Positions 9,965-15,379 of a DNA stretch of 43,714 nucleotides are shown one piece after another. The notes beneath the pieces were generated by a model. The model was not told the origin of the DNA and did not search any database. It was given only the letters and a program-made list of their open reading frames with translations. Every line of letters begins with the position of its first letter. Within the stretch, counting starts at the first letter, position 1. This DNA is from Candidatus Nanopelagicales bacterium (GTDB taxonomy: Bacteria; Actinomycetota; Actinomycetes; S36-B12; GCA-2699445). The translations under genes were made by a program, and so were the position numbers. Where the stretch lies: NCBI GenBank assembly GCA_030700225.1, contig JAUYJT010000028.1, forward strand, positions 1-43,714, in the 5' to 3' direction.

Positions 9965-10759
9965 TCAGTCGGCGAAAGCCCAGTACCTCCCGAACACCCG
10001 GCGTACGGTGAGCGGAACGTCGAAGGTCTTGGTCACGTTCTCGTCGGTCAGCACGCTTTCGGTCAGGCCAGACGCCATGGCTTGGCCATCCCGTAGCAGT
10101 AACGCGTGGTCGAACCCAGGCGGGATCTCCTCGACGTGATGCGTGATCAGCACCTGAACCGGACCCGTGGGCTCCTTGGCCAGCACGGAGAGTCGCTCGA
10201 CCAACGCCTCGCGCGCTCCCAGATCCAGGCCCGCCGCTGGCTCGTCCAGCAGGAGCAACTCAGGGTTGGGCATCAGTGCCCTGGCTATGAGAACGCGCTT
10301 CCGCTCACCATCAGACAACGTCCCGACGGCACGATCCGCCAGCGAAACGACACCCATCACCTGCAGCAGGAAGTGGGCGCGTTCCACGTCCTCGTCGGCG
10401 TATTCCTCACGCCACCGGCCCGACCTGGCCCAGGCGGCTGTCATCACCGCGTCCAGCACGGACTCCCCGTCAGGTATGAGCGTTGCGGAACGCGGCGAAA
10501 CCACACCGATCATGGGACGAATACTGAACACGTCCACTAGGCCCAGCGTCTCGCCAAGCAGCTTGACCTGTCCACGAGTCGGGTGGACAACAGTTGCAAC
10601 CATGTCGAGCAACGTCGACTTTCCCGCCCCATTCGGGCCCAGTACGACCCAGCGCTCCCCCGTGCGCACGGACCAGTCGACACGGTCCAGCACGGGAACA
10701 CCCCCGCGCACCACCGTGGCGGCCGCTAGTTGGATGACCTCGCTCACAGTTCGCGACAC
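9965..10759 (-). CDS. ABC transporter ATP-binding protein (no permease nearby)
   Basis: A 264-aa single nucleotide-binding domain with Walker A GPNGAGKST, signature LSDGERKRVLIARAL (D in place of the first G of LSGGE), Walker B LLLLDEPAAGLD, and a switch His in LITHHVEEIP. The partner and substrate are unknown because no permease gene is adjacent. Two GTG starts are possible, at 10759 and at 10747; the latter has TAGTGT eight bases upstream, which could be the -10 element of a leaderless mRNA. The gene lies just downstream, on the same strand, of the broken sixA copy, so before island insertion it probably followed the intact sixA. Confidence 0.93.
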   Translation of the reverse strand: MSRTVSEVIQLAAATVVRGGVPVLDRVDWSVRTGERWVVLGPNGAGKSTLLDMVATVVHPTRGQVKLLGETLGLVDVFSIRPMIGVVSPRSATLIPDGESVLDAVMTAAWARSGRWREEYADEDVERAHFLLQVMGVVSLADRAVGTLSDGERKRVLIARALMPNPELLLLDEPAAGLDLGAREALVERLSVLAKEPTGPVQVLITHHVEEIPPGFDHALLLRDGQAMASGLTESVLTDENVTKTFDVPLTVRRVFGRYWAFAD

Positions 10760-10807
10760 TACCTGAGCCTGGGCTCATTCCCGTGCGACCGCCGTCGGGC
10801 GCGCCCC

Positions 10808-11172
10808 TCAGATACCCCGCGGCGCCACAAACTCGACCAGTTGAGCGCGACCTTCATCGAGACCCGCCCAGGATCCGGCGAACCGCAACACGGCGATACC
10901 CATCGTCGGATACTTGGCCCTCATCCGGTCAAGCGCGGTTGAGTCACTGCCCGAGCCCGCCAGGCTGTCAACGAGGTCCTGGCAGCCTGGACTGTGGGCA
11001 ACCACGGCCACGACTCGATCCTCGCCTGCTGACGTCCGGATGACATCCAGCAGTCCGCCCCCGGGCGCCGCGTAGACGCCTGGGCGGGAGGTCGTCACCG
11101 GCTCGTCGGTTCGGTCCCGTGACACGATCTCCCCTAGGTCTGCCTCGTCCGAGTTGCTGGCGAGACCCAGAC
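10808..11172 (-). pseudogene. sixA: Truncated, frameshifted sixA copy
   Basis: Encodes the C-terminal two-thirds of a SixA-type phosphatase, ending VEFVAPRGI versus VEFAAPRG in the intact gene at 13274-13786. The first ~50 residues, including the catalytic Arg-His pair, are missing. Near 11134 a 2-nt length difference breaks the frame: RVWVSPATRTRQT is in one frame and EIVSRDRTDEPVT in another, whereas the intact copy reads RVWLSPATRTRQTWEIVSRD without a break. It is therefore a non-functional remnant. It abuts the restriction gene and marks the left edge of the island. Confidence 0.88.
10821..11172. repeat. Left copy of the ~350-bp sixA direct repeat
   Basis: Aligned by eye with 13284-13633 in the same orientation. 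A hand count gives about 42 mismatches and one 2-nt indel, about 88% identity. Weak similarity continues on the left to about 10789. Positions 11001-11078 are identical to 13464-13541 over 78 bp, far more than expected at the average divergence. Confidence 0.9.
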
Positions 11173-11210
11173 GCGAACGAAGGGGGCAGGGCAGGGCATG
11201 GCGCGCTGGC

Positions 11211-12155
11211 ATGATGACAAGCACCTCGTTCGGAATCCACGAGTGGTACGGCAACATCGTCCAGGATCTGGGTGTCGCCGAGCGACAGGCTCTCGCCCGG
11301 CGCGCGCTGGAGCACTACCGCGAGAAACAAGATGCTGTGCGAGATCCATGTCCGTTTCACGCCTCTGTAGCGCCCGGTGCTTCGTGCAACAAGCCGGGCG
11401 GGGTGTGCTCGATCCAGCCACTGATGAAGTCTCACGGCCACGTGTCGCCTGTTCCCCACGCGGTCCCAGCCGTCACGTGTCCTCAGCGCTTCTGGGGGGA
11501 CAGGCTGAAACTGCTCCGTTGGATCGCTAAGACGATCCTCGGATCGTCAAGCGTGCTGGCGGTCAAGGAAACGCCGTTCCTGAGGAGGCTCGGCGACGAA
11601 GTTGCTGACTCCGATGACAGGAACACGGCGGGGCGCATCGACTGGCTGTTGATCGACACCAAGTCTCCTGACAACAAGGTTGCAGTCGAGATTCAGTCGC
11701 TCTACTTCTCAGGACACAATATGGGCGACGATATTCAGCGATACGTGGGCTCGAGTGGCCTTGTGTTCCCAGCGAGGCCGCGGCGGCCAGATTATCGGTC
11801 TGGAGGCCCGAAGAGACTCGCGCCCCAACTTAGGGTCAAGGTTCCGGCCCTGGCTGATCTCGGGATAGGGACTGCTGTGCTGGTTGACAGGTACTTCCAC
11901 CAGCAGATGGCTCAAGGGATCCTGTCAGGAACCCCCGCTTCTACTGAGGGGCTCCACAACCTGACATGGTTCGTGGCCGAGTATCAGGTGGGAGGCGGAC
12001 TGGGGCCATCTGAGATCGCCTACGCTTCCCTCGACGAGTCTGTTCTGGCGATGGACGCGGTGCGCCCGATGGAACGTCGTGAGTTCGACGCGAATCTAGG
12101 AGTGACCCTCCGCAAGCCATCGAATCAAGGGACCAAGGTCTTCACCCTCTGCTGA
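11211..12155 (+). CDS. NotI-family type II restriction endonuclease
   Basis: A 314-aa protein predicted to cut double-stranded DNA at a specific site. The N-terminal region matches the NotI layout: SFGIHEWYG, then four cysteines in DPCPF, ASCNKP, GGVC and VTCPQRF (residues 47, 59, 66, 90), which in NotI bind one metal ion. The nuclease core shows GRIDW (Asp144) and VAVEIQSLYFSG (Glu160-x-Gln162). This is a PD-(D/E)XK variant with Gln in the Lys position, which as I recall NotI also has. The start is placed at ATG 11211, where the family similarity begins; the frame is open back to 11154, but that part lies in the sixA repeat. No clear ribosome site is seen. Its 3' end overlaps the methyltransferase gene tail-to-tail by 14 nt. 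Confidence 0.85.
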   Translation: MMTSTSFGIHEWYGNIVQDLGVAERQALARRALEHYREKQDAVRDPCPFHASVAPGASCNKPGGVCSIQPLMKSHGHVSPVPHAVPAVTCPQRFWGDRLKLLRWIAKTILGSSSVLAVKETPFLRRLGDEVADSDDRNTAGRIDWLLIDTKSPDNKVAVEIQSLYFSGHNMGDDIQRYVGSSGLVFPARPRRPDYRSGGPKRLAPQLRVKVPALADLGIGTAVLVDRYFHQQMAQGILSGTPASTEGLHNLTWFVAEYQVGGGLGPSEIAYASLDESVLAMDAVRPMERREFDANLGVTLRKPSNQGTKVFTLC

Positions 12156-13074
12156 GCACAAGCTCCCTGTGCAGCGCGTGATGGGTCGACTTCATGGGAA
12201 CTCGCTCAACTAAGAATTCGAATTCGTCGGCCAGTTCGCGCACCTCTCGGCTTTCGTCGTAGGTCATCATGACTGGGCCTCGCAGTTCCGCAGCCAGCGA
12301 GAAGACCTGCTTGTGGTCGACTTCGTGTTGCGTATACAGCCGACTACCAGCCCGCTTTCCGCCGACGGTATAGGGCGGATCGATGAACCAACCGCACTCG
12401 GATTGATCGAGGTTGCGGTCAACCATCAAGTCCAGGGCGTCAAGCTGTGTGAAGACTAGTCGCTGACGGATCGTGCGAATGATTCGCATTCTGCGAACCA
12501 ACGTCTCCGGATACCATCTGGAGCGCAGTCCCCTTCCAGCCTCGCCCGCCTTGCTGATCCCGGCTCCGCTGGCAAGGATGCCGCCTCGGGCCGTCCGGTT
12601 TCGCACGATCGTCTGGAAGGCCCGACTCACCAGCGTGTCTGGCTTTCGCTCATGCTCGCGTTTCACATTGTCGAGTGTTACTTCGAACTCGAGGATAAGT
12701 TGACACAACGCATTCGTATCAGCGTCTGACCCGTTGACCAAGAGTTCCCACACAGACGCGACGACCGGATCGAGCTCATTGAGGTGCACGGTCCTGGCGA
12801 GAGTTTCAGATGCCACCATCAGTCCGCACGAGGCTCCGCCGGCGAATGGCTCGACGAACGTCGACAGCCTGTGTTTCCTCGCCCATGTGCGAACCCACGG
12901 CACGAGCCACGTCTTGCCGCCCGGATACCGGAAGGGCGAGATGAGAGGCACTTGCGCGACGTTCACGGGTTTGAGTCCCACCCGGGTGGGAGGGAGCGGA
13001 AGTTGTTCACAGTCGAACAGAGGCTCGTCGTAGGACCAGCCAGTCGCGCGCGTCCTGTCCCCACCACCCGCCAT
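12142..13074 (-). CDS. D12-class N6-adenine DNA methyltransferase (Dam-like)
   Basis: A 310-aa enzyme predicted to methylate adenine N6 in a specific site, protecting the host from the adjacent endonuclease. It has motif X SPFRYPGGKTWLVPW, motif I FVEPFAGGASCGL (AdoMet binding) and motif IV DPPY at about residues 232-235, in the alpha-group order typical of Dam/D12 enzymes. A segment rich in Arg and Gly (RNRTARGGILASGAG) lies in the target-recognition region. ATG 13074 is chosen because GGAGG lies at 13080-13084 on its strand; the in-frame ATG at 13086 has none. It converges with the endonuclease gene, so the two have separate promoters and no controller-protein gene is evident. Confidence 0.93.
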   Translation of the reverse strand: MAGGGDRTRATGWSYDEPLFDCEQLPLPPTRVGLKPVNVAQVPLISPFRYPGGKTWLVPWVRTWARKHRLSTFVEPFAGGASCGLMVASETLARTVHLNELDPVVASVWELLVNGSDADTNALCQLILEFEVTLDNVKREHERKPDTLVSRAFQTIVRNRTARGGILASGAGISKAGEAGRGLRSRWYPETLVRRMRIIRTIRQRLVFTQLDALDLMVDRNLDQSECGWFIDPPYTVGGKRAGSRLYTQHEVDHKQVFSLAAELRGPVMMTYDESREVRELADEFEFLVERVPMKSTHHALHRELVLSRG

Positions 13075-13104
13075 GATCACCTCCAAGTCGCCTTCAAGGT
13101 CACA

Positions 13105-13269
13105 CTAGCTTGCGGACGTGGTCACCTCCCGGATGACTCGGCGAAGCTGTGGACACAGTTGGCACCCGGGAAAGGTCACACCCTCCACCGAACAGTGATG
13201 GTGTGCGTAGCAGTAGCCCAAGACAGGAATGGTCCGCGAGGCAACCTCGTGGCACCGCCGCGCGCCCAT
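13105..13269 (-). CDS. Possible small Cys/His-rich protein upstream of the methyltransferase
   Basis: An open frame of 54 aa from ATG 13269, on the same strand as and 30 nt upstream of the methyltransferase. It contains GYCYAHHHCSVEG and FPGCQLCPQL, giving C-x5-C-x8-C-x2-C with three consecutive His, which resembles a metal-binding knuckle and faintly an HNH/endonuclease VII zinc site. There is no convincing ribosome site and I recognise no family. It could be a gene remnant, a small zinc protein of the island, or chance. The methyltransferase promoter must also lie in or near this stretch. Confidence 0.25.
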   Translation of the reverse strand: MGARRCHEVASRTIPVLGYCYAHHHCSVEGVTFPGCQLCPQLRRVIREVTTSAS

Positions 13270-13273
13270 CTGA

Positions 13274-13786
13274 TCAGCCCCTGGGCGCCGCGAACTCAAC
13301 GAGTTGAGCGCACCCTTCATCGAGATCCGCCCAGGGTCCGACGAACCGCAACACGGCGATGCCCATCGTCGGATACTTGACCCTCACTCGCTCGAGCGCG
13401 GCTGAGTCACTGCCCGAGCCCGCCAGGCTCTCAACGAGGTCCTGGCAGCCCGGGTTGTGGGCGACCACGGCCACGACTCGATCCTCGCCTGCTGACGTCC
13501 GGATGACATCCAGCAGTCCGCCCCCGGGCGCCGCGTAGACGGCGGGTTCAATGCACGTCACGGGTTCGTCGGTCCGGTCGCGGGACACGATCTCCCACGT
13601 CTGCCGCGTCCGCGTTGCTGGAGAGAGCCAGACTCTGTCGATCACAGGGACTTCAGCGGCAAGCCAGCGGGCTGCAGCGAACGCGTCCCGGCGGCCACGC
13701 AGTGCCAGCGGGCGGTCCGCGTCCGCGACGCCCAGCGGCCAGTCCGACTTGGCGTGGCGCATGACTACCAACGTTCGCTCACTCAC
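13274..13786 (-). CDS. sixA: SixA-type histidine phosphatase
   Basis: A 170-aa histidine-phosphatase-superfamily protein with the catalytic VVMRHAKSDW motif at residues 7-16 (Arg10, His11), the LSPATRTRQT helix, and VVAHNPGCQDLVESLAG with the second catalytic His. Homologues dephosphorylate phosphohistidine proteins such as ArcB; the actinobacterial substrate is unknown. GTG 13786 is chosen because AGGAGG lies four bases upstream; the frame is open ten codons further. The 3' 350 bp are duplicated at 10821-11172, on the far side of the restriction-modification genes. Confidence 0.92.
   Translation of the reverse strand: MSERTLVVMRHAKSDWPLGVADADRPLALRGRRDAFAAARWLAAEVPVIDRVWLSPATRTRQTWEIVSRDRTDEPVTCIEPAVYAAPGGGLLDVIRTSAGEDRVVAVVAHNPGCQDLVESLAGSGSDSAALERVRVKYPTMGIAVLRFVGPWADLDEGCAQLVEFAAPRG
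13284..13633. repeat. Right copy of the ~350-bp sixA direct repeat
   Basis: Partner of 10821-11172, same orientation, about 88% identical by hand count. This copy lies wholly within the intact sixA gene, from codon ~51 to the stop. Similarity to the left copy fades outward of the stop at about 13252. Confidence 0.9.
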
Positions 13787-13867: not shown

Positions 13868-15379
13868 GTGAGCCCTTCCTCCCTGACCGGAATCGATGTC
13901 GACGCGGTGATTGACGCGGCTCTCGACGCGACCAGGCAGATGGACCACTGCGATGTACGAGTCGTCGCGACGCGAACGGCCTACCTGACTCAGCGCGACC
14001 GCGACCCGATGGCGAACGTGGATCAACTCGCCCTGGGAGTTGGAGTCAGGGTGCTCGACCAGGGCTGTTGGGGATTCGCTGGCACCGCGGACGTCACCCC
14101 TGAGGGAGCGGCGAAGGCGGCCACCCAGGCCTCGGCCATGCTGCGGGCGAGCCGCGCGGCCGCGACCTCACGCGTTGAGCTCGCGCCAGAACCTGTTCAC
14201 GCCGGTGAGTGGTCAAGCCAGTTCGACGTCGACCCGTTCGACATACCGCCAGCGGACCGGATGAGCTGGCTTTCGGCGCAATGCGACAACTTGTTGGCGG
14301 CGGGCCCAGTGCATCACGCGTCTGGCAGCGTGATGGCTGTTCGTGAGGAGACCGCCTTCGGCAGCAGCGCCGGGAGCCGCCTCAACCAGAAGCGGGTCCG
14401 CATACATGCTGAGATCACCGGGATCCGTGTCTCCGATGACGGGGGATTCGAGTCGCTGCGCACGACGGCACCGCCGACCGGGCGCGGCTGGGAGTACCTG
14501 ATCGGGGGCTGCGAGCCGGTCGGACCCGCCAGACCATGGGACTGGGACGCCGAACTGTCAGAGCTGCCGGGGCGGCTGGAGCAGAAGGCCGCGGCACCCT
14601 CGATAGAACCTGGCAGGTACACCCTCGTCCTGCATCCCACGAACCTGTGGCTGACGATCCACGAGTCGGTCGGCCATGCCACGGAACTCGACCGGGTTCT
14701 GGGGTACGAGGCGAACTACGCGGGGACGTCATTCGTGACCACCGACGGTCTCGGTCGGCTCAAGTACGGTTCGCCGCACATGAACGTCATGGCCGACCGG
14801 GTGACACCACATGGACTGTCCACGGTCGGCTGGGATGACGAAGGCGTCGCGGCGCAGCGTTGGCCGCTGGTCTCGCGCGGGGTCCTGGTGGGTCTTCAGT
14901 TGGACCGCGCGATGGCGGCTGCCTCTGGTCAGTCGCGAAGCAACGGCTGCGCGTACGCGGACTCCGCACTCCATACACCGATCCAGCGCATGCCCAACGT
15001 CGGCCTTGAACCGGACCCGGACGGCGGTCGCCTGGAGGATCTGGTCGGCGGCGTCGAAGACGGAATCCTGATCGTGGGCGACGGCTCCTGGTCGATAGAC
15101 ATGCAGAGATACAACTTCCAGTTCACGGGTCAGCGGTTCGAACGGATCAAGGCGGGTCGCCTCGTGGGACAGGTCAAGGACGTGGCCTACCAAGGCTCGA
15201 CACCGGGCTTCTGGGGTTCCCTGGTAGCACTCGGCGGGCCGGATTCGGTTCTGCTTGGCGGGGCATTCAACTGCGGCAAGGGGCAGCCCGGGCAGGTCGC
15301 GCCCGTCTCCCACGCTTGCCCGCCTGCGGTGCTCGAGAATGTCAATGTCCTGAACAGCGCGGCGGAGGGTGTGTCGTGA
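13868..15379 (+). CDS. tldD: Metalloprotease TldD
   Basis: A 503-aa catalytic half of the TldD/TldE heterodimer, a zinc protease that degrades unfolded peptides and in some bacteria matures peptide antibiotics. The zinc motif is HESVGH (His265, His269), followed by the expected YEANYAGTSF. The C-terminal part has SWSIDMQRYNFQFTGQ. The GTG start at 13868 lies 81 nt from the divergent sixA start; no strong ribosome site is seen, so a leaderless or short-leader mRNA is possible. It overlaps tldE by 4 nt. No small precursor-peptide gene was recognised beside the pair. Confidence 0.93.
   Translation: MSPSSLTGIDVDAVIDAALDATRQMDHCDVRVVATRTAYLTQRDRDPMANVDQLALGVGVRVLDQGCWGFAGTADVTPEGAAKAATQASAMLRASRAAATSRVELAPEPVHAGEWSSQFDVDPFDIPPADRMSWLSAQCDNLLAAGPVHHASGSVMAVREETAFGSSAGSRLNQKRVRIHAEITGIRVSDDGGFESLRTTAPPTGRGWEYLIGGCEPVGPARPWDWDAELSELPGRLEQKAAAPSIEPGRYTLVLHPTNLWLTIHESVGHATELDRVLGYEANYAGTSFVTTDGLGRLKYGSPHMNVMADRVTPHGLSTVGWDDEGVAAQRWPLVSRGVLVGLQLDRAMAAASGQSRSNGCAYADSALHTPIQRMPNVGLEPDPDGGRLEDLVGGVEDGILIVGDGSWSIDMQRYNFQFTGQRFERIKAGRLVGQVKDVAYQGSTPGFWGSLVALGGPDSVLLGGAFNCGKGQPGQVAPVSHACPPAVLENVNVLNSAAEGVS

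Follow-up and report, generated by a model that had tools for sequence, protein, structure and literature searches.

By what route did a restriction-modification (R-M) pair come to lie between two copies of the same chromosomal gene end, at a place with no visible mobility gene? The question is raised by a locus of a Candidatus Nanopelagicales genome, within the 43,714-nt stretch of DNA that we analysed (hereafter the window). The original prediction saw here the footprint of an R-M insertion with a long target duplication in sixA. This reading stood in part: the long direct repeat and the lack of mobility genes are there, but an insertion into an otherwise ancestral locus is not what we find, as two neighbours kept by relatives, serB and gene X, are gone. 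We give about an even chance to another route, in which the R-M pair was captured between sixA and the downstream ABC transporter ATPase gene by recombination with DNA of a related donor that carried a sixA end. The features of the locus are collected in Table 1.

Table 1. Features of the R-M locus and its flanks, in window coordinates.
Feature	Position	Strand	Basis
ABC transporter ATPase, conserved downstream flank	9965..10747	-	Orthologues; start probably GTG at 10747, in an ORF open as far as 10759
Second sixA 3′ end, truncated (left copy)	10792..11172	-	Ungapped repeat and blastn
78-nt identical block, left member	11001..11078	-	Longest identical run
NotI-family restriction endonuclease, 313 aa	11214..12155	+	Pfam PF12183 (6e-33), AlphaFold fold, invariant residues
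D12-class N6-adenine DNA methyltransferase	12142..13074	-	Pfam PF02086 (1e-10), motifs, start context
Short ORF (71 aa) that overlaps the 3′ end of sixA	13105..13320	-	ORF only
Intact sixA-like phosphohistidine phosphatase (right copy), 180 aa	13274..13816	-	PF00300
78-nt identical block, right member	13464..13541	-	Longest identical run
Conserved flank: TldD/PmbA-family gene, divergent from sixA	13868..15379	+	Orthologues

As had been predicted, the 3′ two-thirds of sixA is present twice in one orientation (about 10792-11172 and 13260-13633). The two copies are aligned by blastn over 376 nt with 86.7% identity (10799-11172 against 13260-13633), and the E-value of about 7e-130 rules out chance as the source of the repeat. 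A repeat search of the window delimits an ungapped direct repeat of 292 nt (88%; 10792-11083 / 13255-13546) and a second ungapped piece of 41 nt (88%; 11093-11133 / 13556-13596) that keeps the same register, with a spacing of 2463. The intact right copy scores below the TIGR00249 cut-off. The left copy is devoid of the 5′ third of the gene, and faint homology may extend it to about 10784. It had been described as truncated and frameshifted: the truncation holds, while the frameshift is restricted to the 5′ edge, where a 2-nt gap lies near 11134-11140. From there on, 107 codons can be read in the frame of sixA up to a stop (PRGI*) that comes one codon later than in the intact gene.

Between the copies we find the endonuclease gene, the methyltransferase gene and a doubtful short ORF, and nothing else, in agreement with the original prediction. 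The ORF matches no family and has a homologue in none of the compared loci; judging from these comparisons it is probably not a gene. The predicted absence of transposase and integrase was borne out, since neither of these, nor a terminal inverted repeat or a tRNA, was found at the island, and no transposase-type end is visible at its edges. No further copy of the island was found in this genome, and a scan for sigma-70 promoters and terminators gave no result. The GC content of the R-M stretch is 58-62%, against about 65-68% in the surroundings.

The identity of the R-M genes is supported by Pfam, conserved residues and fold. The endonuclease scores 114.6 bits against PF12183, for a cut-off of 22. 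Its AlphaFold model, built from 17 sequences (pLDDT 86.6), aligns with NotI 3C25 over 261 positions with a Z of 17.6 and an rmsd of 4.5 (VIA-align). Indeed, the NotI crystal structures score Z 17.6 and 16.0 and the next unrelated entry Z 7.5, while Foldseek returns 3bvq (7e-6). A sequence search of the PDB did not retrieve NotI, whereas the structure comparison did. C46, C65, C89, D143, E159 and Q161 are invariant across the 17 sequences, and C58 is invariant in a separate alignment of six. We take the four cysteines to be a metal site and D...ExQ to be the catalytic residues, with roles as in NotI. Because the partner is an adenine methyltransferase, the recognition site probably differs from GCGGCCGC, the site of the NotI family. 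Relatives of the endonuclease were found in none of the annotated phages; in viral contigs, none was retrieved with a single-sequence query but some were with an alignment query. No close relative was found in the phage and plasmid collections, the best reaching 35% identity.

The methyltransferase scores 42.2 bits against PF02086 (cut-off 22), and its FVEPFAGG and DPPY motifs are kept among relatives. Its ORF opens to 13086, and the ATG start is preceded by GGAGGTG in a clean ribosome-binding site, GGAGGTGATC ATG. The protein also gives a match to PD-Lambda-5, which in the literature is a compact RM+Abi system of prophages (PMC9519451). This assignment was not retained, as the likeness is limited to the methyltransferase and its partner here is NotI-like.

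The two genes are convergent and overlap by 14 bp. A NotI-like endonuclease and an adenine methyltransferase are also adjacent on plasmids of Aeromonas (NZ_CP121823) and Variovorax (NZ_LR594665), where the methyltransferase is 55% and the endonuclease 34-35% identical to ours; these plasmid pairs are tandem, in contrast to the convergent pair of our chromosomal contig. The pair recurs, in varying orientations, in three other actinobacterial genomes: it is convergent in L163, convergent with a broken nuclease in L164, and tandem with a short nuclease ORF in L165. It is likewise found on viral contigs (L158, L167-L170, L187-L192 and others), and the convergent order of the present pair recurs in L163, L158, L164 and L167. 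Because nuclease and methyltransferase genes recur side by side in plasmids, viral contigs and genomes, we assign them, on sequence grounds, to a predicted Type II R-M system that looks intact. Long repeats do not flank the homologous pairs found elsewhere, which we count against capture; a duplication is thus no general trait of this NotI-like/D12 R-M family.

Two further observations concern these families. In two of the actinobacterial genomes the nuclease is split or shortened beside an intact adenine methyltransferase (L164:5569-6103 and L165:5943-6371), which suggests that these nuclease halves are being lost. On other plasmids, NotI-like nucleases are accompanied by cytosine methyltransferases (L161:3515-6326 and L162:37-2059), one locus adding a Vsr-type endonuclease; thus, the NotI-like family swaps methyltransferase partners.

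What did the locus look like before the R-M genes? A congener search with TldD over genome contigs gave a best match of 61%, and no congener is present in the collections; the nearest genomes compared belong to the same family, with about 42-53% SixA identity. In 7/7 of these same-family genomes sixA has a divergent TldD-family gene on one side and, 1.5-5.0 kb downstream, an ABC orthologue (58-69%). Hit coordinates from ten other members of the order place the two genes 0.85-5.8 kb apart. The empty site that had been predicted, a single sixA followed directly by the ABC gene, was encountered in none of these 17 relatives (seven of the same family and ten others of the order). Where the interval was read, it contains serB (phosphoserine phosphatase) and/or the conserved gene X, both separately confirmed in G002 and G004; in G005, where ORF selection took a different frame, X is a putative assignment. 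The contrary arrangement, two sixA copies at the locus without R-M genes, did not appear either: a second copy was found in 0/47 relatives carrying sixA.

The X protein of L037 (6907-7635) has 242 aa, is encoded divergently from the ABC gene and matches no Pfam family; X occurs throughout the family and also outside it (28-81% identity), but is absent from the genome of the window. Further genes occupy the interval in some relatives, namely an MFS transporter (L038), a 299-aa gene (L034) and several genes (L035), and altogether the interval (L033-L039) looks like a tolerated insertion spot with a content that differs between genera.

In our genome, which is 95.7% complete, neither X nor an orthologue of serB was found, the best serB matches (1.6e-11) being other HAD phosphatases, and no remnant of either gene rises above noise within the window. 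With both absent, the two genes were either replaced on balance or deleted earlier, and the event was not an insertion into an otherwise ancestral locus. By comparison with relatives, the R-M pair thus occupies the place of serB and X, and a simple insertion does not account for everything at the locus. The ABC promoter seems to be kept, since a TAGTGT -10-like element at 10756-10761, some 9-14 bp ahead of the ABC start codon, is similar to the elements that precede ABC orthologues; the homology of the left sixA copy stops roughly 20-30 bp upstream of it.

The divergence between the sixA copies informs on their origin. The original estimate of about 88% identity agrees with the repeat segments and is close to the value for the 376-nt alignment, but the divergence is not uniform. 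A block of 78 nt is perfectly identical, while its two sides differ by 27% and 14% (P 5e-5, permutation within codon positions). Selection is an unlikely cause of this identity because most residues encoded by the block vary among relatives; the block likely reflects gene conversion or a crossover between the copies. The differences fall on codon positions 1, 2 and 3 in numbers of 9, 10 and 23, with a dN of 0.084 and a dS of 0.287. In simulations on a trimmed alignment with 39 differences, a left copy that is neutral throughout yields more amino-acid changes than are observed (P 0.04-0.06), and one that is neutral for half its branch fits (P 0.24-0.61). Neutral decay from identical copies is therefore marginally disfavoured, a suggestive and not a decisive result. 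Part of the divergence of the left copy is nevertheless decay, since it has lost an Asn that is invariant in 15/15 relatives. The suggestion that homologous exchange between the copies would delete the island cleanly is well founded: the flanks, joined within the 78-nt block, give a predicted sixA that is intact and in frame and ends 60 nt before the ABC start.

In the scenario that we favour, incoming DNA from a related lineage would bring a sixA end beside the R-M genes, both the donor and the direction of transfer being our proposal. This DNA would anchor by homology in sixA, and its other end would be joined non-homologously at a point some 20-40 bp ahead of the endonuclease start. The result would be one intact sixA and, before the ABC gene, the displaced 3′ end of the other copy; serB and X may have been lost in the same event or earlier. 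Donor capture is favoured because it explains together the divergence, the asymmetry and the intermediate substitution pattern of the copies. We count in its favour that one copy is intact and the other truncated at its 5′ side with only R-M genes between them, that these have a lower GC content and turn up also on plasmids, on viral contigs and in other genomes, that the 78-nt block points to recombination between sixA copies, and that this genome lacks serB and X. The marginal substitution test and the decay of the left copy count against it. The prediction had left the choice between an old event and a donor sixA end; the donor end accounts for the data no worse than an old duplication of identical copies does.

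The main rival, which we hold to be possible but unlikely, is a classical insertion with long target duplication: about 375 bp would have been duplicated at a sixA-ABC junction already without serB and X, giving copies that were identical at first and of which the left one has decayed since. The anatomy corresponds to the published pattern, in which R-M genes are surrounded by long duplications of varying length, around 100 bp in order of magnitude, and no transposase is involved (PMC3874152; PMC3031569). Such cases come from Helicobacter pylori and other organisms (Nobusato 2000; Furuta 2010; cited through PMC3874152, PMC3031569 and PMC1643837). Our locus shares with such insertions the presence of only R-M genes between long direct chromosomal copies, the lack of transposase and one intact target gene; it differs from them in that its copies are 13% diverged and mosaic, its empty allele is not known, and the ancestral neighbours serB and X are missing. 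The frameshift and the lost Asn agree with decay of the left copy, and if one unit is removed, what remains is a sixA with its frame intact, 60 nt ahead of the ABC gene. However, this route requires a separate prior loss of serB and X and a sixA-ABC adjacency seen in no relative, it starts from the identical copies that the simulations marginally disfavour, and it leaves the identical block unexplained unless gene conversion came later.

Integration of a circle by a single crossover, either of a plasmid or of an excised R-M and sixA-fragment circle from a relative, seems to us improbable. The crossover would lie in the identical block, the expected site for it, and both copies would be hybrid; a spacing of 2463, divisible by three, a resolved sixA predicted to be intact, and the carriage of the pair on plasmids and viral contigs are all in line with it. 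Yet plasmid backbone genes are absent between the copies, and no nuclease from the phage or plasmid collections comes closer than the 35% given above. A still bolder proposal, to which we attach very little probability, takes the 2463-bp unit, made up of the R-M pair and a single sixA 3′ end, for a mobile element that needs no transposase. It would excise as a circle and integrate into sixA of relatives by ordinary homologous recombination, with an intact sixA kept or restored at every step; if so, its signature would consist of the spacing that preserves the frame, the identical block and the intact hybrid sixA predicted upon excision.

Finally, a duplication independent of the R-M genes, or a wrong join of two strains at the 78-nt repeat, is doubtful: the assembly is a draft of 85 contigs, 78 nt is close to common assembler k-mer lengths and the content of the interval varies among relatives anyway, but a wrong join at the block would yield neither the sixA/endonuclease junction nor a second diverged copy, and 0/47 relatives carry a second sixA at the locus.

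Capture from a donor has a counterpart in homology-facilitated illegitimate recombination, which leaves orphaned 3′ ends at Rhs and T6SS effector loci (PMC5361080). As there, a cassette appears to be joined by homology on one side, with the 3′ end of the old gene displaced downstream; unlike there, the cassette consists of R-M genes and not of effector-immunity pairs, and the donor is putative.

Both R-M genes and a recombination scar of this kind are already known, and the present case is a further example. If our reading is true, it adds an actinobacterial NotI-type case to the described transposase-free routes of R-M genes into chromosomes. Given congener sequences, the mosaic sixA copies could serve to distinguish ends that came from a donor from a true target duplication. 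The locus also suggests that the capture of R-M genes can be accompanied by the loss of conserved neighbours, here serB and X.
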